Assembly: GCA_031296355.1 (NCBI GenBank) | Contig: JARLFX010000228.1 | Span: forward strand, 1-64,000 | DNA length: 64,000 nt | Origin: Acidobacteriaceae bacterium | Lineage (GTDB): Bacteria; Acidobacteriota; Terriglobia; Terriglobales; Acidobacteriaceae | Reading direction: 5' to 3' | Shown: one piece after another, positions 34,476-63,574 of the stretch | Numbering within the stretch: position 1 is the stretch's first letter | Layout of the letters: each line of letters opens with the position of its first letter | Made by a program: the position numbers and the translations under genes | The notes under the pieces: model-generated | What the model was told of the DNA's origin: nothing | The model's database searches: none | Seen by the model: the letters and a program-made list of their open reading frames with translations, nothing else

Positions 34476-37400
34476 ATGTCCATCTGGAAAACCGTACGTC
34501 GAATGCGCACCTATCTGCTGCAAATTGCCGGAATTGCACTTGCAGCGGCGTGCCTGCAGGCCCCAGTGGCCGCGGCCCAGACAACCACGGTGACAGGCAC
34601 GGTTTCACCGCTGCTGGCATCGGCAAACGATCTGGGAGCATTGCCGATCTCACAGGCGATGAGTGGCCTGGTGCTGCAATTGAAGCCCAGCGCAGATTTG
34701 GCGCCCTTTGCGAACGCGGTATCTGATCCCGCTTCAGCACAGTATCGCAAGTGGCTGACCGCATCACAGATCGCAGACCGCTTTGGAGCATCTCAGGCGC
34801 AGGTGGATGAGCTTACGGCATGGCTTACGTGCTACGGCTTGCAGGTAACGTTTGTTGCCCAGTCACGCGGCTTTCTAGTGGTGAGTGGCACGGTTGCTCA
34901 GATTGAAAATGCATTCGGTGTCCAACTTGACCGCTTCCTGCTGGCTAATGGCGCCGCTGGTTTTGCGAATCTGGCTGACCCAGTGCTTCCGGCGAAGATA
35001 GCCTCCAGTATCGCGAATATTCGCGGGCTCAATAGCTTTGCATATGCTCCTGCAACCGCAGCGAAAGCACTGGTGGCTGCGGGCGCAGCAGATGCGGTGA
35101 CGGCGCTCCATGCGGCCCCTCTGGCGGCACAAGGGTGGAATGGCACCGGTGTATCGGTAGTATTGGCTGGCAGCAGCGAGGGCGTGGCGGCAAACGCAGT
35201 TGCGCCGCGCGCTGTGGTGAGCGATGACTCTTCGCTTGTAGCCGATTCCTTGCTGGCAGCGGCGGAACAGATTGATGCCAATACGGCCCCGGTACTGCGC
35301 GTGGCAGGCGGATGCGTGGCCAGCCTGACCACGGCGGACATGGCATGGTTTGAGCAGGTGGCATTGCAGGCGAATGCCCAGGGGATCACACTGGTGGCTG
35401 CAACCGCTGATTGCAGCAGCGGTGCAGCATTTCCGGCATCGCTAGGTGAAGTAACTGCTGTGGGTAAGCTGGGCAGTGCATTCAGCGCGGCAACATCCTT
35501 CGCGCGGTCTACATGGCAGAATATTGCAGGTCTGCCCGTGGATGGATTGCGGCATACCCCCGATCTATCCGTGACCTCTCCCGCAGGCGCTGGGGACGCA
35601 GCAGCATTCGCAGGAGCAGTGGCGCTGATTGTGCAGAAAGCCAACGGCCTTCGGCAGGGCAATATCAACAGTTTTCTGTACTCGCTGGCGAATCTTCCTG
35701 GAGTTTTCAGTACTGCAAGCTCATCAAGCGGGCTTCATGCTCTGGCCAGTTCTACAAATACCCCAACGTCGGCAAGTTTCGATGCACTGGAAGGGCTGGG
35801 TGTACCCGACCTGACGGCGCTGCTGTCATTTGTGCCGCTGGCGGGATCAACGACGAGCTCTACACAACTCGTGGCCAGTAACTACAACATAACCTACGGT
35901 CAGAGTGTGACGCTGACAGCGACAGTGTTACCTTCGTCGCCAACGCCGACTGGATCCGTGCTCTTCTCGTATCCAAACGGATATCAAATTGTGAGTTTAT
36001 CTGGCAATACGGCTTCGCTGGTGCTGAGTTCCCTGGACGGGGGGAATAATACAATTACGGCGAGCTATTACGGGGATACGACTTATGCGGCGAGCGGCAA
36101 CACCAGCATAAATGTGACTGTGCAGCTACAGAGTGTGACCATCACAACAACTCCGACGGGCACGCCGACCATTGGGGTGAGCTTCCCGGTGACGGTAACG
36201 GTGTCCGGTTCATCCTCCGGAACGTGGCCTCCGATGGGTACCGTAACGGTGACACCGCAGGGTGCGAGCAACAGCACGGCTGGTACGGGGACACTGGGGA
36301 GATTTAGCAACAGTGTGACGGTGGATGTGACCGTTGGACAGGCAGGCCCATTCAACCTTGTGACGGCGTATGCGGGCAACATAGACTATTCGGGCGCCAA
36401 CCAGAGTACGCAGATCACGGTGGCACCGGGAACAACGACGACGGCACTGACGTACTCGCCGACGCCGCCTGTGGCGGGTCAGCCGATTACGCTTTCGGCG
36501 ACGGTGACGGGATCGGTATCGACCCCAGTGCCGACGGGCACTGTCCAATTCTATGATGGCACGACGCAGTTGACGACGGGATCGCTTGCGAGTGGCGTGG
36601 CGACGGCGACGGCGACGCTTTCGCCCGGCAAGACCCATTCGCTGACGGCGAAGTATGTGGGCGACACTAATTTCTCTTCCAGCACATCGAGCGCCGTCTC
36701 AGCAGTGGGTGGGACGATTGCCAGCGTGACGGGGCTGAGTTCCTCTACCTATACGTCGACATATGGGAGCAATGTCACGTTCACGGCGGTTGTAACGCCG
36801 GACCCGAGTGTGACTACGACACTGGTTCCGTCGGGCAAGGTCAATTTCTATTCCAACGGCACCCTGCTGGGATTTGCGACGTTGACGAAGGGGGTGGCGA
36901 ACTATTCCACGACAGCGCTTCCAGTCGGTTTGGCGTCGATTACCGCGACGTATGTGGGCGATACGAACTTTGCGACCAGCAATAGCTCGGACTATAACGG
37001 GGTGACGGTATCGGCTGCGGCGGGAACGCTGACGGCAAGCGTGGCTCCATCAAGCAGCGTTCCGTATGGCGCGACGGCAACGGTGACGGCAACGCTGACG
37101 CTTTCAAACGGAGGAACGCCGACAGGCACGATCACTGCGACGATTCCGGGCACGAACGGCGGCACGTACACCGGCACATTAGTGCCAAACACCGGCGGCT
37201 CAGCTACGGCGACGATTGTGGTGAATGCACCGCCGCCTGGAAACTACACGATTACGGTTGCGTGTGCCACGGCCACGACGAACTATACCTGCGCGCCTAC
37301 CACAGTCGCGCTGGGTACAGTGAAGGGGATTACGGCGACTACGGTAAGCTTTGTTCCCACCGCGCCCATGGCTGGGCAGACGACACAGCTTACGGCGATC

Positions 37401-52584: not shown

Positions 52585-54309
52585 ATGGCGAAGAAAGTTG
52601 CTGAACTGTTTGTAGAGGTTTTGGCTGCTGCCGGTGTCGAGAGAATCTACGGTGTAGCAGGTGATTCACTGAACGGCATCACGGACTCTCTGCGCGTACG
52701 CAAAGGAATGAGCTGGGTTGGCGTACGGCATGAAGAGACTGCTGCATTTGCCGCTGGAGCCGAGGCCGCACTAACCGGCAAGCTCGCGGTATGTGCCGGC
52801 AGCTGTGGGCCGGGCAATCTTCACTTGATCAACGGTCTCTATGATTGCCACCGCAGCCGCGTCCCCGTGCTGGCCATTGCGGCGCACATCCCATCGCAGG
52901 AGATTGGCAGCGGATATTTTCAGGAGACGCATCCGGAACTGCTGTTCAAAGAGTGCAGCCATTTCTGCGAACTGGTTTCGCATCCTTCTCAGATGCCGCG
53001 CTTGCTGGAGCTGGCGATACAGACGGCTCTGTCGAAGAAAGGTGTAGCCGTACTTGTCATTCCCGGCGACGTTGCGCTGGCAAACGCGGTCAACGAAGAG
53101 CGGCGCGTATCCTTCTCGTACGCTCAGTCTGAGGTGATTCCTGCGTCTGCTGAGTTGGAAAAGCTCGCGGGTGAACTGAACAACGCGCAGAAGGTGACTA
53201 TTCTGGCCGGAGCGGGTTGCGCCGGTGCGCACGATGAATTGGTAGCCCTGGCAGGGAAGCTGCAGTCGCCCATTGTGCATGCAATGCGCGGCAAGGAATT
53301 CGTTGAGTACGATAACCCCTACGATGTAGGCATGACGGGCCTGCTGGGTTTTTCCTCCGGTTATCAGGCAATGCGCAGTTGCGACACACTGCTGATGCTG
53401 GGAACGGATTTTCCGTACCAGCAGTTCTATCCAAAGGATGCGCGTGTACTGCAGATAGACATCCGCGAAGAGCAGATAGGGCGACGCAGTAAAGTAGACC
53501 TGGGTTTAGTAGGCGGCATCGGCGAAACCCTGCGAGCGCTGCTTCCAAAGATTAAAGCTAAGAAAGACCACAAGCATCTTGACGCAGCGCGGAACGACTA
53601 TCGCGAAGCGCGTAAGGGCTTGGATGATCTGGCGACAGGCAAGCCCGGCCAGAAGCCAATCCATCCGCAGTATGTGGCAAAGGTGTTAGACGAACTGGCC
53701 GCGAAGGACGCAGTATTCACCGTAGACGTAGGCACGCCTGTCATCTGGGCAGCACGCTACCTGACCATGAATGGCAAGCGGAGGCTATTGAGTTCGTTCA
53801 ACCATGGTTCCATGGCAAACGCACTGCCGCAGGCAATAGGAGCGCAGATTACGTATCCTGGCCGGCAGGTCGTCACGCTCTCAGGCGATGGGGGTGTTTC
53901 CATGTTGATGGGCGATCTACTTTCGCTGCGGCAGTTGAAGCTTCCGGTCAAGATGGTGGTCTTCAACAACAGTTCGCTCGGCTTTGTGGAACTGGAGATG
54001 AAGGCAACAGGCTTCCTGAGCTACGCGACGGACTTGATTAATCCTGACTTCACGAAGATTGCAGAGGGCGCGGGAATTCTTGGCATTCACGTGGAAGATG
54101 CCGGGGACGTCCGGCCTGCACTAGAGCGTGCTTTCGCTCATGACGGTCCGGCGCTGGTAGATATTGCGGTGAACCGGCAGGAGCTCGCCATGCCGCCATC
54201 CCTCAAGCTGGACCAGATCGTGGACTTCAACCTCTACATGGTGAAGGCGATCCTGAATGGACGCGGCGACGAAGTCCTCGACCTGGCCAAGACCAACCTC
54301 TTCCGCTAA
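52585..54309 (+). CDS. poxB: pyruvate dehydrogenase (quinone) / pyruvate oxidase-type ThDP enzyme
   Basis: 574 residues, matching PoxB (about 572). It oxidatively decarboxylates pyruvate to acetate and CO2, passing electrons to quinone. Three domains: ThDP-PYR ([19 protein letters not shown] with the catalytic glutamate at about residue 50), the FAD-binding middle ([33 protein letters not shown]) and ThDP-PP with the cofactor motif [19 protein letters not shown]. The substrate-channel sequence [18 protein letters not shown] is typical. The C-terminus may be the membrane-binding helix. No other gene lies close on its strand. Confidence 0.93.
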
Positions 54310-54439: not shown

Positions 54440-54527
54440 TGGCGGAGAGACAGGGATTCGAACCCTGGATACCTTGCGGTATACACGCTTTCCAAGCGTG
54501 CGCCTTCAGCCACTCGGCCATCTCTCC
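54440..54527 (-). tRNA. tRNA-Ser, anticodon GGA, CCA encoded
   Basis: 88 bases. On the minus strand the acceptor GGAGAGA pairs with TCTCTCC, then G73 and an encoded CCA. TGGCCGAGTGGCTGAAGGC forms the D-arm region. The anticodon loop TTGGAAA between ACGC and GCGT gives anticodon GGA (reads UCC/UCU). The long variable arm TATACCGCAAGGTATC is typical of tRNA-Ser. Confidence 0.95.
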
Positions 54528-54585: not shown

Positions 54586-54620
54586 TGTGGATAGCCGTGG
54601 GCCTCCCAAGCCTATCCACA
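54586..54620. repeat. 9-bp inverted repeat upstream of tRNA-Ser
   Basis: TGTGGATAG and CTATCCACA flank 17 bases (CCGTGGGCCTCCCAAGC). Read on the minus strand it lies 59 bases upstream of the tRNA-Ser 5' end. Its role is unclear: it could end read-through from the decayed gene upstream or be a protein-binding site. Confidence 0.45.
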
Positions 54621-54713: not shown

Positions 54714-54741
54714 ATGTCCGATAACATATATTATGTATACT
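54714..54741 (+). other. dif: candidate dif site (XerC/XerD recombination site)
   Basis: Left arm ATGTCCGATAA, six-base centre CATATA, right arm TTATGTATACT: 28 bases in the 11-6-11 layout of dif. The inner halves ATAA and TTAT, the left-arm CCGATAA and the right-arm TTATGT match the patterns I recall for dif of other bacterial groups. The site is in a non-coding, AT-rich patch 31 bases past the end of a decayed glycosyltransferase. Surrounding gene orientation (plus to the left, minus to the right) agrees with a replication terminus. Confidence 0.7.
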
Positions 54742-54771
54742 AAAGAACCGGGCTGTCGTTTACCCTCTGTT

Positions 54772-55316
54772 TTACCTTGAATCGTTCCTTGGCTTCCATT
54801 CCAGTTGCTTCATTCCTACCGCCGCGATTCCTGGCAAATACACGTCGCGGATACGTTGCCAGCCCCGCTCTGCCAGTTGGCACATATCGTATTCTGGCTG
54901 AACTAGCAATTTCAGTATGGCTTCCGTTACGGCGCTTCCTGTGGGGTGTACCAGAATTCCAGCGCGACCGTCCGCTAGAATCTCCTGCGGTGTTGGCGCG
55001 TCTCATGCGATGGCAATAGTTCCCGCGGCGATTGCCTCCAGATAGACCCAGCCACAGGTCTCAAATGTGCTTGGCATCAGGAGCACGTGGCTCTCTGGCA
55101 CGTCAGGTCGCTAACTTCGTCCCGGCCCAGCTGACCCACCACTTTCAGGTTCGGCATTGCCGGAATCGAAACCGGCCCATCTGCAAAGTTGGTGACGACG
55201 AATAGCTCTAACTTGTCTGGATAGATCGTGTTAGCGGCCTGAAAGGCCGCCAGCACCGCGGGTAAACCCTTCCGATTTTCCTCCCACCCGACAAATAACA
55301 TGCTTACTTTCTGCAT
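54772..55316 (-). pseudogene. decayed group-1 (GT4) glycosyltransferase, C-terminal fragment
   Basis: Reading the minus strand from 55316, SMLFVGWEENRKGLPAVLAA through NLKVVGQLGRDEVSDL is the start of the second Rossmann domain of a GT4 enzyme. Near 55090-55115 the frame is lost. In the shifted frame it resumes as HVLLMPSTFETCGWVYLEAIAAG, meets a TGA at 55003-55005, and continues DAPTPQEILADGRAGILV to a TAA at 54772-54774. So there is at least one frameshift and one in-frame stop, and the first domain (about 200 residues) is missing. It is at the distal end of a surface-polysaccharide operon. Confidence 0.85.
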
Positions 55317-55622
55317 GTTATGTCACTTCCGCGTAAGCATCTCGAGCGAAATGGCCTATAAATGCGGCAAAAATAACGGAATACTGCGAATCCTCCCACC
55401 CGATACCGGATCCAGAGCTCTCTAAGTATCTGCTCCCGCCTCGGAGTTCAGCGTAACTAGCTCAGACTTGGAATCCAGGCTTGCTGGAGGTAGATCTCGA
55501 AGTCGCTGGCAAACTCCTGACCCGTGGCAGGTGCTGGTTGTACAGCCAGTCGGTATTCCGCGGGCGAATATGAAACCGCAGGCTGAAGACGTAAAAGCGC
55601 ACGCAAGAATCTCCCTGCCAGA
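55317..55622 (-). other. gene remnant region between flippase and glycosyltransferase pseudogene
   Basis: These 306 bases hold no intact gene. On the minus strand short stretches with protein-like composition occur in different frames, for example RFYVFSLRFHIRPRNTDWL and, further on, LRELWIRYRVGGFAVFRYF, each cut off by stops. They may be relics of the missing N-terminal half of the glycosyltransferase or of a lost neighbour. I could not assign them. Confidence 0.5.
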
Positions 55623-57155
55623 CTATGACTGCTGCTGGGCGAAACGTCCACGAATGCGGCGGACGAAACCACCAGCCACGTACCGCAGATCGAAGAGCAA
55701 GTAGGATACGCCGCCCACCAGAACAACAGTGGCGATGGTAGAGGCAATCTGCAGCCCATGGCCTGCCGCGGCGGTATAGCGCAGTGTGGCTCCAGCCGCT
55801 ACCAGACCTGCCAGAGAGAGCGCCAGCATGCGGGTCAGGTTGCGCAGGGTGAGCTTCTCTACCCCGGTCACAGACGTGTCAAAGAGTTGGTGATTAAGAT
55901 GCACGATGTAGATCAGTTGCGCGACCTCAGTCACTAGCCAGATACCGAGGAAGCCCATGATGCCGAATATCCTGACCAACGGGATGGAGCATGTCACCAT
56001 GACAAGATAGGAGCCAAACATGAAGCGCGCGAGCTTCTCGTGCGAGTTCGTCGCAAACTGGAATTGGTATTTGTGCTCTTCCGTTGCCATCACAATCGAG
56101 ATCGCCGCGCACACCACGTAGGGGTAGAGCTGGAACATACCAGACTTGTTAACCCTCCACACACTGAGCAGCCAGGGCGATGCAACCAGGATGGCCAGGT
56201 TAACCGTAGGGATACAGGCGAAGATCAGTTGCTCAGAATATCCATAGAGAGTGCGCAATTGCCGCCAGTCGCGCTTTCCAAACAGTGCTGTAATCTCCGG
56301 CCCCAGCGATTGGGTAAGCACGGCCAGTATCTGGCGTCCCATGGAGAAGATCGTTCGCATCAAGGTGAATGCAACGACTGACGCTGGCCCAACAATGCGC
56401 TGTAGCACCAGCACCGGCGCTTCAAATGCGAGGAAGGTGCATGAGTAGATCAGGCCGAAATGCCCGCTTCGCTTGAGGATTTCACTCACCGAACTGCGGT
56501 CCCAGTGTTTAACATTGGGAAATATCTGTGGCGCTGTGCGCTTGAGGTCGATCATCACAGCCACGAATACCACGGCATACGTGGCGAGTTGCACGAACGC
56601 GAGCATGGCGAAGGATACATGCAACAGGATTGCCCCAACAGTAGCCAGGATGAACAGCATGCGCTGTCCGTTGTTCCATTGGGTACCGCGGTGTGCCTTC
56701 TCGATCACCATAAAGATGCCGGAGAAGTAGCCGAACAGAATGTTTACCAGCACCTGCATGGCCAGCAGAAACGTAGCCAGGGTGGCTTGCTGGTTAGAGA
56801 TACTGAGTCGCAGAATGTGCGATATGGGCAGCAGAAAAATGATCGGCGAGAGCAACGCCGCGCCCCCGCAGATGCCGAGCAGCAGGCGTAGTGCTGTCGA
56901 CTGCCGCACATGGTACCCCTCGATCTCGCCCCGGTGAAAGCGCAAGGCGAGGTCTTGGTTGACGTAAGTTTGTACTCCGAAATTCAGCGTACGCAGATAC
57001 GCAACTCCTACAGAGAGCGCCAGCCATTCTCCGTAGAGCGCGATCCCATACTGGTGAAGAAAGATGGGAGGCAGCAGTAGTTGATTCGCCACCATAGTGA
57101 TGTTGGCGACGACAAGCGCAAATAGGTTGTTGAAGATACGCTTCAGGCTGCCCAT
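55623..57155 (-). CDS. polysaccharide flippase (Wzx/MATE-like, MOP superfamily)
   Basis: 510 residues with 12-14 transmembrane helices. The N-terminus MGSLKRIFNNLFALVVANIT followed by YGIALYGEWLALSV is typical of oligosaccharide-repeat flippases, as is TLNFGVQTYVNQD. A basic tail (RRIRGRFAQQQS) ends the protein. It is expected to move lipid-linked sugar units across the inner membrane. The gene follows the GT9 gene by 30 bases on the same strand and precedes the decayed glycosyltransferase, so the locus is a surface-glycan operon that has lost at least one enzyme. Confidence 0.85.
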   Translation of the reverse strand: MGSLKRIFNNLFALVVANITMVANQLLLPPIFLHQYGIALYGEWLALSVGVAYLRTLNFGVQTYVNQDLALRFHRGEIEGYHVRQSTALRLLLGICGGAALLSPIIFLLPISHILRLSISNQQATLATFLLAMQVLVNILFGYFSGIFMVIEKAHRGTQWNNGQRMLFILATVGAILLHVSFAMLAFVQLATYAVVFVAVMIDLKRTAPQIFPNVKHWDRSSVSEILKRSGHFGLIYSCTFLAFEAPVLVLQRIVGPASVVAFTLMRTIFSMGRQILAVLTQSLGPEITALFGKRDWRQLRTLYGYSEQLIFACIPTVNLAILVASPWLLSVWRVNKSGMFQLYPYVVCAAISIVMATEEHKYQFQFATNSHEKLARFMFGSYLVMVTCSIPLVRIFGIMGFLGIWLVTEVAQLIYIVHLNHQLFDTSVTGVEKLTLRNLTRMLALSLAGLVAAGATLRYTAAAGHGLQIASTIATVVLVGGVSYLLFDLRYVAGGFVRRIRGRFAQQQS

Positions 57156-57185
57156 GCTCTCCCTATCGTATCTTGAGGAACGCTC

Positions 57186-58325
57186 TTATGGGGTTGTACT
57201 AATCAGGCTATGTTTCACGCGAGTAGTTCTCGCTTCTGCGGATGGAGGATAGAGTGCGAGCAGATCGTCCGCAGCGGCAATCACCTCGGCTACGCTGACT
57301 TCCTCAATTGCATAATTCGGTGGTGGCGGCGCCGGAAACCACGGCCCTTTGAGAATCCGTGCCCATGGCCGGCCCAGGGGCATCCATTCGACCGAATTCT
57401 GCCAGGCGGGCGCAATGACTACCAAAGGCAATTGCTGAGTGCGCGCCACGTGAAGACCTCCCGTATCGAGCGTAATCGCAATATCGGCAAGAGAACATAC
57501 GGCCGCCAGTTCTGCCACCGTGGTTTTTCCCGCAATCGATTCTGCCCCCGGGCCTATACGCTGAGCGAGAGCCTGCTGGACGGCCACATCGCTTGGCATA
57601 CCGGTCAAGAGAACACACAAACCATGCTTGCGTATGAGATATTGCGCCACCTCAACAAAACGATCTTCAGGCCAGCGTGTAGGTTGTCCCCCGCTGGTGC
57701 GCGTTACCAACACCGCGGTCCCCTTTTCAGGATTACCGATTAAGTTGCGCGCAAGATTGATTTCTGACGATGACAAGAAGAGCCGAGGCTCAATATCACG
57801 CGCATGGATTCCCAGTGGCGAAAGTGTGCTCAGGTTGATATTAATCTGGCTTTCCTGGCCACCTGCTGTGAGTGGAACATCGTACAGTGCAGGAACCTGC
57901 GTGAACCCAATTCTCAACGCCTTGCCGCCCAGTATAAGTGCAACAGCTGCAATGCGAGTGCGGCTGCTTCCCCGGGTAGTTATCAAGCAGAAGGCGCGTC
58001 CACTCCGATACTCCCGCCGCAGAAAGCGCGCCGCAGCCAGAGTATGGGTATAAGGATTAGGTGTGATCAGTACGCGGTCAATATACGGATTATTGCGCAG
58101 CGCCTGCGCTGCCAGACCGAACGTCGCGACGGTGATTCGTGCCTCTGGACGGGCTGCGCGCAGCGCTTCCAGCATAGGTGTTTCATGAATGGAAGATCCC
58201 AGCGCGGGGTCGTAAAAGAAAAGCAGAAACTCCTGAATGCTGTCCAATTCACTTGGATTCACCCGGCCGCGCAGTAGTATCTCCGTTGACCTTATGAATG
58301 AAAAGATAAGCTTGCGAAGGTTCAT
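57186..58325 (-). CDS. glycosyltransferase family 9 (heptosyltransferase-like)
   Basis: 379 residues. Both Rossmann halves of ADP-heptose:LPS transferases are visible. The N-terminal part has FFYDPALGSSIHETPMLEAL and ITVATFGLAAQALRNNPYID. The C-terminal nucleotide-sugar part has TRTSGGQPTRWPEDRFVEVA, VLLTGMPSD and ITLDTGGLHVARTQQLPLVV. It probably adds a heptose or related sugar in LPS core or another surface glycan. The usual DAIGD-type start is replaced by DPALGS. It starts 12 bases after the nuclease gene stop, well within an operon. Confidence 0.88.
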   Translation of the reverse strand: MNLRKLIFSFIRSTEILLRGRVNPSELDSIQEFLLFFYDPALGSSIHETPMLEALRAARPEARITVATFGLAAQALRNNPYIDRVLITPNPYTHTLAAARFLRREYRSGRAFCLITTRGSSRTRIAAVALILGGKALRIGFTQVPALYDVPLTAGGQESQININLSTLSPLGIHARDIEPRLFLSSSEINLARNLIGNPEKGTAVLVTRTSGGQPTRWPEDRFVEVAQYLIRKHGLCVLLTGMPSDVAVQQALAQRIGPGAESIAGKTTVAELAAVCSLADIAITLDTGGLHVARTQQLPLVVIAPAWQNSVEWMPLGRPWARILKGPWFPAPPPPNYAIEEVSVAEVIAAADDLLALYPPSAEARTTRVKHSLISTTP

Positions 58326-58337
58326 AGTGGTAGCGGG

Positions 58338-58859
58338 CTACATCTTGTAGCGGCCCATATCCTCGTCACCCAGGCCTTCAAGCCAGCGGCGCAACTCATC
58401 GGAGTTAATATTCTGTGCGCCATTGGCGGTTAGCTTGGAATTATCCAGCACCTGGCGGCTCACGTAGATCGGGCAATCCGAACGCAGTGCCAGCGCCAGT
58501 GCGTCAGATGGTCGTGCATCCATGGTCACCAGTTCCCCATCCTGATCCATCCAGATCACGGCGTAGAACGTATCGTCGCGCAGTTCAGAGACAACTACCT
58601 TCTTCACCTGCGCGTTCAATCCGCGGATAGCATTGCGCAGCAAGTCATGCGTCATCGGACGCGGCGGCGTGGCTTTCTCAATCTCCAGCGCAATGGCATT
58701 TGCCTCATACATCCCCACCCAGATCGGTAGCACCATCTCACTGTCCACATCCTTCAGCACAATGATCGGCATGTTGGTGACAGGGTCCATCATCAGGCCG
58801 CGAATCTTCATCTCCACATCGGGAGCAGCAGGCGCTTCGGGTTTGTTGAAAATATCCAT
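58338..58859 (-). CDS. bifunctional nuclease family protein (DUF151)
   Basis: 173 residues from the ATG at 58859; a GTG directly before it is the alternative start. DUF151 core: MKIRGLMMDPVTNMPIIVLKD, LPIWVGMYEANAIALEIEK, PRPMTHDLLRNAIRGL, and DARPSDALALALRSDCPIYV. Related proteins were described as having DNase and RNase activity; others are proposed regulatory or stress-linked. The C-terminal 30 residues (NSDELRRWLEGLGDEDMGRYKM) form an acidic helix. It lies between miaB and the GT9 gene with short gaps. Confidence 0.9.
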   Translation of the reverse strand: MDIFNKPEAPAAPDVEMKIRGLMMDPVTNMPIIVLKDVDSEMVLPIWVGMYEANAIALEIEKATPPRPMTHDLLRNAIRGLNAQVKKVVVSELRDDTFYAVIWMDQDGELVTMDARPSDALALALRSDCPIYVSRQVLDNSKLTANGAQNINSDELRRWLEGLGDEDMGRYKM

Positions 58860-58876
58860 CACTCTACTTCTGCATC

Positions 58877-60199
58877 CTAATTCGCTACGGCTGCTTCGCC
58901 AAGCAGGCTGTTCGGCATGGTCTGTGTAATGCGCACCCGCAGGTAGCTGCCAATGGCAGGCAGAATAGGTTGCGAAGTGGTGAAGTTCACCGTCTTATTC
59001 TGTGAGCTGCGCCCCGTTATCTGCCCTCGCTGCGGATTGTAGCTCTCCACCATCACTTCCACCAGTTCGCCCAGGTGCCGTGCATAGTGCAGCCGCTGAA
59101 TCTCCCGTTGCCGGTCGTTCAACTGCTTCAAGCGGGCCATCTTCACTTCGTCAGGAATACTGTCTGCCATGTGGATAGCGGGGGTATTGGGCCGCGGCGA
59201 AAATTTGAACGCAAAGATCGCATCGTACTTTACCTCATCCATCATCGTGAGCGTCTGTTCAAAGTCTTCATCCGTCTCACCCGGAAAACCGACGATCATA
59301 TCGCTGGTGATAGAGATATCCCGCTTCGCCGCCTTGATCCAGCTCATGCGCTCCAGATACCACTCGCGCGTGTACTCGCGCGCCATCGCCTTCAGCACGG
59401 AGCTGGAGCCGCTCTGCACTGGTAGATGTACATGGTCACATAGCGCAGGAGAGGCGTCGATGGCCTCCACAATATCCCGCGTGAAATCGCGCGGATGCGA
59501 TGTCGTAAAGCGCACCCGGCGAATGCCATTGATCTCGCCGATGGAGAGCAGCAGTTCCGCGAACGTCTTCTTCCCTGTCGGATCGACGTAGGAATTTACA
59601 TTCTGTCCCAGCAGTTGAATCTCGGTATACCCACTATCGGCCATACGCCGCGCTTCGCGCAGCACAGACTCCGCCGTGCGGCTACGTTCTTTGCCGCGTG
59701 TATACGGCACCACGCAGTACGCGCAGAATTTGTCACAGCCTTCAATGATGGTGATGTAGCCGCGGTGTGGATTGGCGCGCGAAGTGAATTCAGTTTCAAA
59801 CGTCTCATCGGTCTGGCGATCGTCCAGGCCGGTAATGCGCGTCTCACCCGCCTCCAGCCGCACCAGCATCTGCGGAAGGTTGCGGTAGCTGGCGGAACCA
59901 GATACGAGCGACACATACGGCGCCCGCTCGAAGATCTTCTCGCCTTCCTGCTGCGCCACACAGCCCAGCACGGCAAACTTCTTGCCCTCGCCCTGCATCG
60001 CTTTATACTCATTCAACCGATGGAAGACCTTCTGCTCCGCCTTATCGCGGATGGAACAGGTGTTGTAGAGGATCAGCTCCGCATTGGCCTCATCTTCTAC
60101 GCGGGCATAGCCTTCCTGCTCCAGCGTGCCAATAACTTTTTCCGAGTCATGGGCATTCATCTGGCAGCCAAATGTTTCAATGTAGAAGGTCTTTGCCAT
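58877..60199 (-). CDS. miaB: tRNA-2-methylthio-N6-dimethylallyladenosine synthase
   Basis: 440 residues. Radical-SAM methylthiotransferase for A37 of tRNAs reading U-starting codons. The N-terminal MTTase domain has FYIETFGCQMNAHDSEK and cysteines of YNTCSIR and LGCVAQ for the auxiliary cluster. The radical-SAM cysteines are in EGCDKFCAYCVVPYTRG (CxxxCxxC, about residue 156). The TRAM domain ends the protein (GELVEVMVESYNPQRGQITGRS). The NTCSIR motif and CVVPYTRG fit MiaB rather than RimO or MtaB. Confidence 0.94.
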   Translation of the reverse strand: MAKTFYIETFGCQMNAHDSEKVIGTLEQEGYARVEDEANAELILYNTCSIRDKAEQKVFHRLNEYKAMQGEGKKFAVLGCVAQQEGEKIFERAPYVSLVSGSASYRNLPQMLVRLEAGETRITGLDDRQTDETFETEFTSRANPHRGYITIIEGCDKFCAYCVVPYTRGKERSRTAESVLREARRMADSGYTEIQLLGQNVNSYVDPTGKKTFAELLLSIGEINGIRRVRFTTSHPRDFTRDIVEAIDASPALCDHVHLPVQSGSSSVLKAMAREYTREWYLERMSWIKAAKRDISITSDMIVGFPGETDEDFEQTLTMMDEVKYDAIFAFKFSPRPNTPAIHMADSIPDEVKMARLKQLNDRQREIQRLHYARHLGELVEVMVESYNPQRGQITGRSSQNKTVNFTTSQPILPAIGSYLRVRITQTMPNSLLGEAAVAN

Positions 60200-60231
60200 C
60201 GCACTATCAGTATAGTGCGGTACTCATGAAA

Positions 60232-60969
60232 TCAGGCAGCTGGCTTCTCTTGCACTGGCTCTCTCCAATAGCCCTGATCGCGCATAAAGTAGCTTGGGTT
60301 CCATGTATTCAACGCGGTACGCAGAAACATCAGCGCAATGCGCCCATGGCCCATCTTTTGGAAGCGCCGGTTGCTGGTGTACACCTTCCCCGGCAGAATG
60401 CCAAAGCGCCGCACCGCGACCTTCTTCGTCAGTAGGTAATCCTCTGCGTACAACGCCTGCTCGTGGAACCCGCCCAGCCTGTCGAATTCAGCTTTATCGA
60501 AAAGCAGGAACATCCCTGTGCCGAAAGGTGCAAAGACGCTCGCGATGCGTTGCGCCACGTTGTTCGCTGCAAAGAGCAAATCGTCGCGAAATAATCCAAA
60601 CGTGCAGCCGATGCTGGTCGTCAGGCAGTGCAGTTGCCGGCACTGCATCACCTCCACTGCTCTGCGCAACATGGTGCGATCTCGCAGTTCTACATCCGCA
60701 TCAAGAAAGAGTACGTAGCGAGTATCAGCCAGTCTTGCGCCCGAATTTCTCCCGACAGCAGGCAGGCCGCCCGGGATAATCGTGATGTTGAGACGATCGG
60801 CGAACGCCATGGCCGCCGCAACCGTGTTGTCCGTTGAGTTCGCATCAGCAACGTACACTTTCGTATGCTGCAAGAGCGGGTAGTCCTGCCTGCTCAAAGA
60901 GGTCAGCAACCTCGGCAGGTTCCAGGCCTCGTTCCGAGCTGGAATAACGATCGTAAGCTGGGGATTCAT
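60232..60969 (-). CDS. glycosyltransferase family 2
   Basis: 245 residues from the ATG at 60969, which has AAGGAG upstream. A GT-A fold: TIVIPARNEAWNLPRLLTSL at the start, the nucleotide-sugar metal motif FLDADVEL (DxD at about residue 93), and GGFHEQALYAEDYLLTKKV, which carries the ED catalytic region. No large membrane domain is present; there is only a weak hydrophobic segment at the end. Its first 125 bases overlap, in another frame, the end of the phosphoesterase gene upstream. It likely builds surface glycan with the GT9 and flippase genes. Confidence 0.87.
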   Translation of the reverse strand: MNPQLTIVIPARNEAWNLPRLLTSLSRQDYPLLQHTKVYVADANSTDNTVAAAMAFADRLNITIIPGGLPAVGRNSGARLADTRYVLFLDADVELRDRTMLRRAVEVMQCRQLHCLTTSIGCTFGLFRDDLLFAANNVAQRIASVFAPFGTGMFLLFDKAEFDRLGGFHEQALYAEDYLLTKKVAVRRFGILPGKVYTSNRRFQKMGHGRIALMFLRTALNTWNPSYFMRDQGYWREPVQEKPAA

Positions 60970-61699
60970 CGGCAGCTCCTTCGTAGAGATTGATGCGTAC
61001 ACCTGCTTCTGACACCGTGATATAGGTCGGCGTTTCATCCACCCACGAACCGGTATTGAAGTACTGCACGCCGTCCTTCGTGCGTTCGTCGGCCACATGG
61101 GTATGCCCGCAGAAGACGCGATCCACATGCCCCATCCTCGCGTAGGCCAGCGCTCCCGAAGCCACCTTCTCCGTCAGCCGCAGCCATCGCGTATTGAACC
61201 GGTCCATATGGCGCGTCACAAATTTATTCGGGCTGTCCACCATCTGCAGGTAGTGGTATATCTCCACCCCAATGCGGCTGATCAGCAGGTTGCGGCTCAC
61301 AAACCGGTCAAACTGGTGCCCATGGATCGCCAGGTGGCGCTTGCCCGCATACTCCCACACGTACCGCTTGTACACCGGAATGCCGACGAGATGCGACATG
61401 ATCTTTGAGAGCCCCTCATCGTGGTTGCCCTCTACCCAGATCACCTTCACCTGCCGCTTCGGATTTGAGAGCTTTCGCAGCGCACCCAGAAACTTCCAGT
61501 GGTCGCCGGTCAACCGGCTGAAGTTCAGGTCAGAGAAGATGTCGCCCAGCAGAATAAGTTGGCGGTACTCCACAGCATGCAGCAGTTGCAGAGCCTCCCG
61601 CGCCTTGCTCATCTCCGAACCAAGGTGCAGGTCAGAGAGGATCAGCGTGTCATGCTGCTCCCTGTTGGGCTCCGGGCGATCAAATGACGGGCGGTACAT
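60845..61699 (-). CDS. metallophosphoesterase (UDP-2,3-diacylglucosamine pyrophosphatase/LpxH-like)
   Basis: 284 residues from the ATG at 61699. All five calcineurin-like metal motifs are present: LSDLHLGSE, LLGDIFSD, VEGNHDEG, IHGHQFD and CGHTHVAD. The combination and the SDLHLG start match LpxH-like UDP-2,3-diacylglucosamine hydrolases of the lipid A pathway, but other phosphoesterases in this branch act on other substrates. The last 40 residues (SSSERGLEPAEVADLFEQAG and on) are outside the family core and are encoded by DNA overlapping the GT2 start. Confidence 0.87.
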   Translation of the reverse strand: MYRPSFDRPEPNREQHDTLILSDLHLGSEMSKAREALQLLHAVEYRQLILLGDIFSDLNFSRLTGDHWKFLGALRKLSNPKRQVKVIWVEGNHDEGLSKIMSHLVGIPVYKRYVWEYAGKRHLAIHGHQFDRFVSRNLLISRIGVEIYHYLQMVDSPNKFVTRHMDRFNTRWLRLTEKVASGALAYARMGHVDRVFCGHTHVADERTKDGVQYFNTGSWVDETPTYITVSEAGVRINLYEGAADESPAYDRYSSSERGLEPAEVADLFEQAGLPALAAYESVRC

Positions 61700-61890
61700 A
61701 GACGGCGTCTCCTGCACTGTGATCTGCTTCCAGAGTGCCTGCCCTACATGAAATAAAGATGAATCGGCGTTGAATCCTGCGCGGAGGAACACAGAGATAT
61801 ACCTGCACCGCCGCCTCCGCCCTTGGCATCCAAACCAGTAGAGTCAACCTGCTGCAAATCAACGCAGTGCAGTACAGTGTGAGAAAGCCT

Positions 61891-62433
61891 ATGACGATTG
61901 CAAAGAAAAAATCCGGCGCCGGCCACGCTCCCGCGTTGCTCAACCAGGCCCTGGGCAGCCGTGTAAACCGCTGCTTCGGCTGCGGCCCTGCCAACAACTA
62001 CGGCCTGAAGCTGCGCTTCCGCCTCGACCACGAGACCAACACCACCATCGCCCGCGTCAAACTCAGCAGTCGCTACGAAGGCCCTCCCGGCCACATCCAC
62101 GGCGGCATCATCGCCACCCTGCTTGACGAAGCGATGGGCAAGGTCAACAAACTCTTTGACACCGTGTCTATGACGCGGCACATGGAGATCAATTACCTGC
62201 GCCCCTCGCCCCTGAACCAGACGCATACCGTCACCGGCCGCTTTGTCCGTCGCGAGGGCCGCAAGATGTTTATGGAAGGCGAGGTCCGCAACGCTGCGGG
62301 CGAGTTGCTGGCGCAGAGCAAGGGGCTTTTCATCGTGATTGACCCGGTGGCTCTCTTTGCCCGTCAGACCCGCCACCGCATCGAAGGAGCCTGCCCTGTT
62401 GCGGTCCCCACCAGCAAGCGCAAGACGCCATAG
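61891..62433 (+). CDS. PaaI-type hotdog thioesterase
   Basis: 180 residues from the ATG at 61891; a GTG 8 codons earlier is a possible alternative. Single hotdog domain: a short CxxC-containing lead (NRCFGCGPANNYGLKLRF), the HGG motif in GHIHGGIIATLLDEAMGK, and strands ITYLRP-like (MEINYLRPSPLNQTHTVTG). Cleaves an acyl-CoA or related thioester in the cytoplasm. Lysine-rich beginning (IAKKKSG) and end (TSKRKTP). It is divergent from the phosphoesterase operon. Confidence 0.88.
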   Translation: MTIAKKKSGAGHAPALLNQALGSRVNRCFGCGPANNYGLKLRFRLDHETNTTIARVKLSSRYEGPPGHIHGGIIATLLDEAMGKVNKLFDTVSMTRHMEINYLRPSPLNQTHTVTGRFVRREGRKMFMEGEVRNAAGELLAQSKGLFIVIDPVALFARQTRHRIEGACPVAVPTSKRKTP

Positions 62434-62605: not shown

Positions 62606-63574
62606 ATGGCAGTGACAGGTTCAGACCACAGCAAGAATGGACACAGCAGCACCGGCGCGTCGCTACGGCTGAAGACCGGCCTCGCCGAGATGCTGAAGGG
62701 CGGCGTCATCATGGATGTGATGAACGTCGAGCAGGCCCGCATTGCAGAAGAAGCAGGCGCAACGTCGGTGATGGCGCTGGAGCGCGTCCCCGCCATGATC
62801 CGCGCCGAAGGCGGCGTGGCCCGCATGGCCAACCCCAAGCTCATCAAAGAGATTATGGCTGCCGTGTCCATCCCGGTCATGGCCAAGGCCCGCATCGGCC
62901 ACATTGCCGAAGCGCAGATTCTGCAGCAGCTCGGCGTCGACTTTATCGACGAGAGCGAAGTCCTCACCCCCGCTGACGGCGCGCACCACATTGACAAGCA
63001 TGCCTTCACCACCCCATTTGTCTGCGGGGCGCGCAACCTCGGCGAAGCCCTCCGCCGCATCGCCGAAGGCGCAGCCATGATCCGCACCAAGGGCGAAGCT
63101 GGCACCGGCGACGTCGTTCATGCCGTGCAGCACATGCGCCAGATCGTGCGCGAGATGAAGGCCCTCACCGTCCTCAGCGAGCAGGAGCTCTATCTCGCCG
63201 CCAAGGAGCATCAGGCAGCCTACGAACTCATCCGCATGGTCGCGCAGACCGGCAAGCTCCCCGTGCCCAACTACTCCGCCGGTGGCATCGCCACCCCGGC
63301 AGACGCAGCCCTCATGATGCAGCTCGGCGCCGAAGCAGTTTTCGTCGGTTCCGGCATCTTCATGAAGGAGCGCGCCACCCCGCTGGACGTCGAGCACGAC
63401 AAGAAAGAGCGCGAAGAAGCCGTCTCCCGCGCCAAAGCCATCGTGATCGCGACCACACACTTCAACGATGCGAAGATATTGGCGGAAGCAGCCGAAGCCG
63501 TAACCGGAACCATGAAGGGTCTCGCCGCTGCCGCGATTGAAGAGAAGGATCTGCTGCAGACTCGCGGCTGGTAG
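62606..63574 (+). CDS. pdxS: pyridoxal 5'-phosphate synthase subunit PdxS
   Basis: 322 residues, with TAGGAG before the ATG. A (beta/alpha)8 barrel that makes PLP from ribose 5-phosphate, glyceraldehyde 3-phosphate and ammonia. Signatures: [40 protein letters not shown], the lysine of [14 protein letters not shown] and [14 protein letters not shown]. The N-terminal 20 residues are longer and more polar than usual. Codons end predominantly in C, unlike the plus-strand genes in the left half of the window. PdxT, its glutaminase partner, follows after a repeat-filled gap. Confidence 0.96.

Follow-up and report, generated by a model that had tools for sequence, protein, structure and literature searches.

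The 64,000-nucleotide stretch of Acidobacteriaceae DNA analysed here (the window) raises the question of whether an inverted repeat at positions 54714 to 54741 of its forward strand is the dif site of the chromosome, and whether the window covers the replication terminus, as proposed in a preliminary description. Direct reading recovered the 28-mer exactly as claimed there, ATGTCCGATAA-CATATA-TTATGTATACT in an 11-6-11 layout, with two imperfectly inverted 11-bp arms around a 6-bp centre. On the plus strand, these elements are a putative XerC-type arm (54714 to 54724), designated as such by resemblance, a central region (54725 to 54730) that ends in TA and belongs to the type found at most single-copy sites, and a predicted XerD-type arm (54731 to 54741) that resembles the arms of relatives and the TTATGT of the XerD arms listed in PMC10132070. 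The length, the 11-6-11 layout, the inner ATAA and TTAT and the TTATGT that opens the XerD arm are shared with bacterial chromosomal dif sites as set out in Kono et al. 2011 (PMC3025954), which predicted dif in Acidobacteria, including Acidobacterium capsulatum, using profiles from other phyla, and linked dif to the switch in GC skew.

The XerC-type arm of this group, [AG][TC]GTC[CT]GATAA, differs from the ..CG[CT]ATAA of the Acinetobacter sites described in PMC10132070. Among 57 distinct sites from relatives, all of which had been selected at no more than 2-3 mismatches, positions 3-5 and 8-11 of the XerC-type arm are invariant, and the last two spacer positions are T in 55 sites and A in all 57. 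Unlike known chromosomal dif, the XerD-type arm of 21 of these 57 distinct sites contains TTCTG. A swapped labelling of the two arms was considered and rejected, given that TTATGTAAAGT, TTATGTTAACT and TTATGTATACT resemble XerD arms; the XerD-type arms described here also resemble what we take to be the XerD arm of Bacillus subtilis.

The 28-mer, which the preliminary description had placed in a non-coding patch, has a tRNA-Ser (GGA) gene on its left and an interval free of long intact genes on its right. The tRNA gene (54440 to 54527, minus strand; ARAGORN, Rfam tRNA 59.4 bits) lies approximately 0.19 kb from the site and is preceded by a gene for a ubiquinone-dependent pyruvate dehydrogenase (52585 to 54309, plus strand; NF006591, 986 bits against a cut-off of 792). 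Past this interval, the minus strand carries a 510-aa ORF, a gene of the glycosyltransferase 9 type, a gene with a bifunctional nuclease domain (58338 to 58862; PF02577, 139.5 bits) and the adjoining miaB (58877 to 60199; TIGR01574, 475.7 bits), with the dif site 4.1 kb past the miaB stop codon. The 510-aa ORF had no Pfam match at 1e-10 and appears flippase-like by eye.

Two features of the immediate surroundings were observed in addition. The region from 54742 to 55620 contains no long intact ORF, and its minus strand is partly similar, by eye, to a broken glycosyltransferase family 1 gene; when it was considered as a decayed copy of the glycosyltransferase located beside dif in the related genome G061, two weak matches were obtained (E 0.10 and 0.16), one of them inside the region. 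Approximately 100 bp to the left of the dif site, a hairpin with 16-nt arms that are 88% complementary (54586 to 54620) holds TGTGGATA and TATCCACA, the latter resembling a DnaA box.

To gauge the 28-mer against chance, we compared the window with randomized sequences. The window contains a single copy of the inner core ATAA-N6-TTATG, where dinucleotide shuffles predict 0.11; 11 of 100 such shuffles had one, which makes the core modest evidence on its own. Scored against a profile of the 57 distinct relatives' sites, the 28-mer attained 47.3 bits. The next-best place in the window scored -3.2, and the highest score among 60 first-order random sequences of equal length was 20.9; the relatives' own sites range from 33.5 to 50.4 bits on the same scale, and two of them (L083 and L108) have unusual spacers. 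The profile excluded the window's own site, but its 57 sites were located with a pattern derived from the window, so that the score measures fit and is not an independent test. Independent support comes instead from the relatives, which contain such sites but hardly ever the reversed pattern.

We searched related genomes with the core pattern GTCCGATAA-N6-TTATGTATA, allowing at most 2 mismatches and using the reversed pattern as a control. The core pattern was detected in 14 of 20 relatives, with one match each (that of G009 being on an 82-kb contig and carrying an unusual spacer), against none of the 20 for the reversed control. Across 298 genomes of the Terriglobales, it was present in 217 by row count, 191 of which had one match and 26 two or more, while the reversed control gave 6 hits in total over the same 298 genomes (row count). 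The pattern was absent at no more than 2 mismatches from 81 of the 298, which may reflect incomplete genomes, diverged arms or loss. Certain hits, for example in G119, G212 and G125 (GTCCGAT[CT]ATNAGTTTTATGTATC), appear to be coincidental or to fall in coding sequence; they were kept in these counts. Sites of this type are thus widespread in the order and usually present once per matching genome, which bears out the anticipated conservation in related genomes.

To locate these sites on the chromosome, we identified dnaA in 18 genomes picked for large contigs or many sites. In 10 of them, a single contig that represents nearly the whole chromosome holds both dnaA and a candidate dif. In all 10 of these testable relatives, the site lies close to the point directly opposite dnaA, the distance amounting to 0.08 to 4.11% of the contig; for random and independent positions, the chance of such a placement in 10 of 10 is about 1e-11, a figure that ignores the selection by spacer of the G209 site among three. 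Of the three G209 sites, the one carrying the usual spacer deviates from the antipode by 4.1% and the other two by 12 and 24%; in G057, the chromosomal site deviates by 0.08%. The remaining genomes fell outside this test: in G047, G083, G001 and G158, dnaA and the chromosomal-type site are on different contigs; in G055 and G071, the shared contig is far from whole; G133 has a partial contig and unusual spacers; and G068 has four sites on a chromosome-size contig, none with the usual spacer. These four dif-like sites of G068 (contig C1, at 28520, 48782, 4289577 and 4718998) lie 2.4 to 8.1% from the dnaA antipode.

The gene neighbourhood of the site was examined at the best 80 of at least 591 miaB loci, these 80 being nearly all from Acidobacteriota as judged by title, among which the closest MiaB relative is that of Granulicella sp. 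dw_53 (83% identical). In 29 of the best 80 loci, a site with at most 3 mismatches follows miaB at a distance of 0.6 to 5.5 kb and is oriented relative to the gene as it is in the window (where the distance is 4.1 kb); in 2 loci, the downstream site has the opposite orientation. No downstream site was detected in the other 49 of the 80 loci, 8 of which end within 900 bp of miaB; the closest relatives (L001-L003) belong to these 49.

Within the window, GC skew ranges from +0.06 to +0.23 up to 36 kb, from -0.06 to +0.03 between 36 and 60 kb, and is -0.10 in the last 4 kb, defining a terminus-like zone (36000 to 60000) in which it drops from clearly positive to approximately zero. The cumulative GC skew has its maximum at 37,089, which is 17.6 kb from the site and within the tens of kilobases foreseen in the preliminary description. 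This profile fits a terminus, with a maximum that is off the site and not sharp. Sampled stretches running from dnaA to dif in two relatives gave a pooled skew of +0.038, with 14 of 19 positive (G061), and of +0.054, with 11 of 19 positive (G034); such sampling is too noisy alone to locate a terminus, and the dnaA antipode test was used instead. In two relatives, the word GGGNAGGG, which we take to be the E. coli KOPS, points towards dif 71 times and away from it 38 times, a moderate bias. Gene strand in the window was judged from mechanical ORF lists. To the left of the site, plus-strand ORFs prevail; the exceptions are minus-strand ORFs between 8.3 and 14.8 kb and between 47.8 and 49.0 kb, together with a minus-strand tRNA-Leu at 47.6 kb. 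The minus-strand run beginning with tRNA-Ser continues with genes on that strand from 55623 to 61792, followed by plus-strand genes for a thioesterase (61867-62433) and pdxS (62606-63574).

The relatives also encode candidate partners for the site. Tyrosine recombinase matches were obtained in all 20 relatives, and among the matches listed a strong pair approximately 1 kb apart was present in 19, G009 being the exception. In the two tandem pairs scored, XerD is, of the two equivalog models, the better match to the first gene (324 bits in G061 and 314 in G034; cut-off 329.6), which passes NF001399, and XerC the better match to the second (296 bits in both; cut-off 335.15), with these equivalog scores slightly under the curated cut-offs. 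According to established Xer biology, crossovers between sister chromosomes would, when odd in number, produce a dimer, two dif copies of which would be paired at the closing septum by the FtsK DNA translocase. By analogy, one Xer recombinase would then bind each 11-bp arm, and strand exchange at the borders of the 6-bp centre may convert the dimer into two monomers.

Taken together, these data indicate that the 28-mer is very probably the dif site on the chromosome of a Granulicella-like acidobacterium of the Terriglobales. As in the chromosomal dif sites treated in PMC3025954, the sites of relatives mostly occur once per genome and, in the 10 genomes testable for this, opposite dnaA, and many relatives share the miaB neighbourhood, which supports the identification of the 28-mer as chromosomal dif; the window would then probably cover the terminus, in line with the skew maximum 17.6 kb away and with the antipode data of relatives. 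We infer that the site would also be single-copy and opposite oriC in the source organism. The alternative that deserves most consideration is that of a plasmid-type or secondary dif-like site, functioning in dimer resolution of another replicon or bounding an exchanged segment, since some genomes of the clade contain numerous additional sites (11 in G068, 13 in G158 and 7 over six contigs in G057). The window, however, carries chromosomal housekeeping genes and tRNAs, its CATATA spacer is the common single-copy type, its miaB neighbourhood is that seen at single-copy sites, and no insertion sequence end was seen beside its site; we accordingly regard this alternative as very unlikely.

Elements of the IMEX type integrate at dif in other bacteria, and the 28-mer could in principle be the attachment site of such an element, integrated through XerCD. 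This use of dif is its main recommendation, but no second site at 4 or fewer mismatches was found elsewhere in the window and a viral contig collection yielded one exact core match, so this origin appears more improbable still. Least credible, to the point of being negligible, is a coincidental match or an inverted repeat that serves a different function, such as a terminator or an operator: the appearance of the bare core in shuffled sequences speaks for it, but the site is conserved over the order, in which the reversed pattern hardly occurs, and it lies opposite dnaA in relatives. The interpretation of the 28-mer as chromosomal dif given in the preliminary description is therefore right in substance, and the feature itself is ordinary biology; the interest lies mainly in related sites and their insertion sequences, for which the evidence is suggestive and partly worked out.

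Several related genomes contain many matches (13 in G158, 11 in G068, 7 each in G057 and G227, 6 in G133 and 5 in G047), and the spacers varied in G158, G068, G057, G133 and G047, the five of these genomes whose spacers were compared. The sites of G057 are apparently on every replicon, because its seven matches are distributed over six contigs that total its 5.5 Mb. The Granulicella tundricola plasmids pACIX905 (115,221) and pACIX902 (300,292) were matched in the transposase search described below. Genomes of this clade, apparently including these named plasmids, carry extra dif-like sites with different spacers. Of the loci with such extra sites and variable spacers (L124-L143), several have in common an AT-rich motif on the upstream side, approximately TATACTATTGATAACAAA..ACTT. 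At L083, L133 (near 2676), L135 and L139 (near 6580), the XerD-type arm is followed after approximately 7-20 bp by a XerC-type arm in inverted orientation (TTATCGGAC or TTATCAGAC).

Comparison of the flanks of these sites revealed pairs in which similarity ends at the site. The left flanks of L125, L126 and L127 are alike to the first base of the site (93-94% over approximately 1.9 kb) with no similarity reported to the right, and left flanks alike up to the site, again without reported similarity on the right side, were found for L125 and L130 (92% over 3 kb) and for L129 and L131 (95% over 3 kb). In other pairs, similarity stops 11 to approximately 116 bp before the site, as in L133/L137 (11 bp), L140/L142 (approximately 95 bp) and L125/L135 (approximately 100 bp). 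Flanks that end at the site look like the product of exchange or insertion at dif-like sites, a mechanism suggested by the sequences; an insertion beside the site could also cause flank similarity to end there. Extra dif-like sites, varied 6-bp spacers and some homologous flanks that end at the site are shared with the plasmid pdif sites and dif modules of Acinetobacter as described in PMC10132070, and these pdif-like features are found in the Acidobacteriota relatives, not at the window. In contrast with the inversely oriented boundary sites of the Acinetobacter dif modules described there, all sites have a single orientation in 10 of the 12 contigs with two or more listed sites, and a mixed one in contigs C1 of G068 and G209. 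Because the sites on one contig mostly have the same orientation, we did not class the related loci as dif modules.

The transposase search recovered ISNCY_2 (NF033594) transposases at at least 37 places in at least 21 of 150 genomes, with NF033594 scores of 450-467 bits in all four transposases scored. Element ends were analysed for 21 of the 37 copies on the upstream side of the transposase, accepting sites with at most 4 mismatches; a scan on both sides of the sites had yielded four loci, of which the two on the left were probably spurious. In 11 of the 21 copies (L133, L136, L213, L215, L216, L217, L233, L234, L235, L237 and L240), a dif-like site is located directly upstream, with its XerD-type arm 5-6 bp from the end of the element and the transposase reading away from the site. 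Two of these 11 sites have the usual chromosomal-type spacer (CAAATA in G001 and CACATA in G158). Equal 5-bp flanks were found in 4 of the 11, by script in L133 and L217 and by eye with a one-base shift in L213 and L233; the flanks of L136, L216 and L234 are unequal despite a recognisable right end, and the right end of L215, L235, L237 and L240 was not recognised. An additional copy, L239, likewise has equal 5-bp flanks by script, beside an identically spaced but degenerate site (8 mismatches). Nine other copies have no dif-like site directly upstream at 4 or fewer mismatches. The upstream sequence of the ISNCY_2 copy at L212, ACTTGTCATAA-GATAAA-TTATGCGACTG, is a possible dif-like site of another consensus, with 8 mismatches to the one used here.

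These elements conform to the ISAjo2 group of the IS1202 family, as delineated in PMC10132070, in their ISNCY-type transposase, their length of approximately 1.5 kb (1.5-1.6 kb), their mostly TGT/ACA ends (the L133 and L240 elements begin with TAT), a 5-bp duplication in some copies and a left end adjoining a dif-like site, with exceptions in flanks and ends. They depart from it in the side of the site that they adjoin. Harmer et al. 2023 (PMC10132070) place the IS1202 family 5 bp from the XerC arm in Acinetobacter, and report it also near dif-like sites of some further bacteria, whereas the copies in Acidobacteriota that adjoin a site (11 of 21) lie 5-6 bp outside the XerD-type arm. The main text of that article makes no mention of "acidobacteri" or "granulicella", and, judged by titles and abstract openings, no paper on pdif sites or XerD-side IS1202 targeting in Acidobacteriota was found in the literature collection searched.

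These observations could be combined into an economy of Xer sites in the Granulicella clade, with plasmid sites that have their own spacers, segments swapped or inserted at some sites, and XerD-side targeting by IS1202-type elements. Less weight is placed on this composite picture because of the unequal flanks of several insertion sequences, the mostly same-oriented sites and the flanks whose similarity stops short of the site, and we consider the chances for and against it evenly balanced.

For the draft acidobacterial genome itself, the 28-mer marks the likely replication terminus, and the profile of 57 sites finds dif across the Terriglobales, providing an aid for orienting assemblies. The related loci weigh more, as they suggest the existence of plasmid dif-like sites and of dif-hunting insertion sequences in the Acidobacteriota. 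Targeting of the XerD side would be the mirror image of the XerC-side targeting of Acinetobacter and, if true, the transposase may read XerD, or a complex of Xer and DNA, in the Granulicella lineage. Such a switch of targeting side would allow a test of what IS1202-type transposases recognise: XerC, XerD or the DNA itself.
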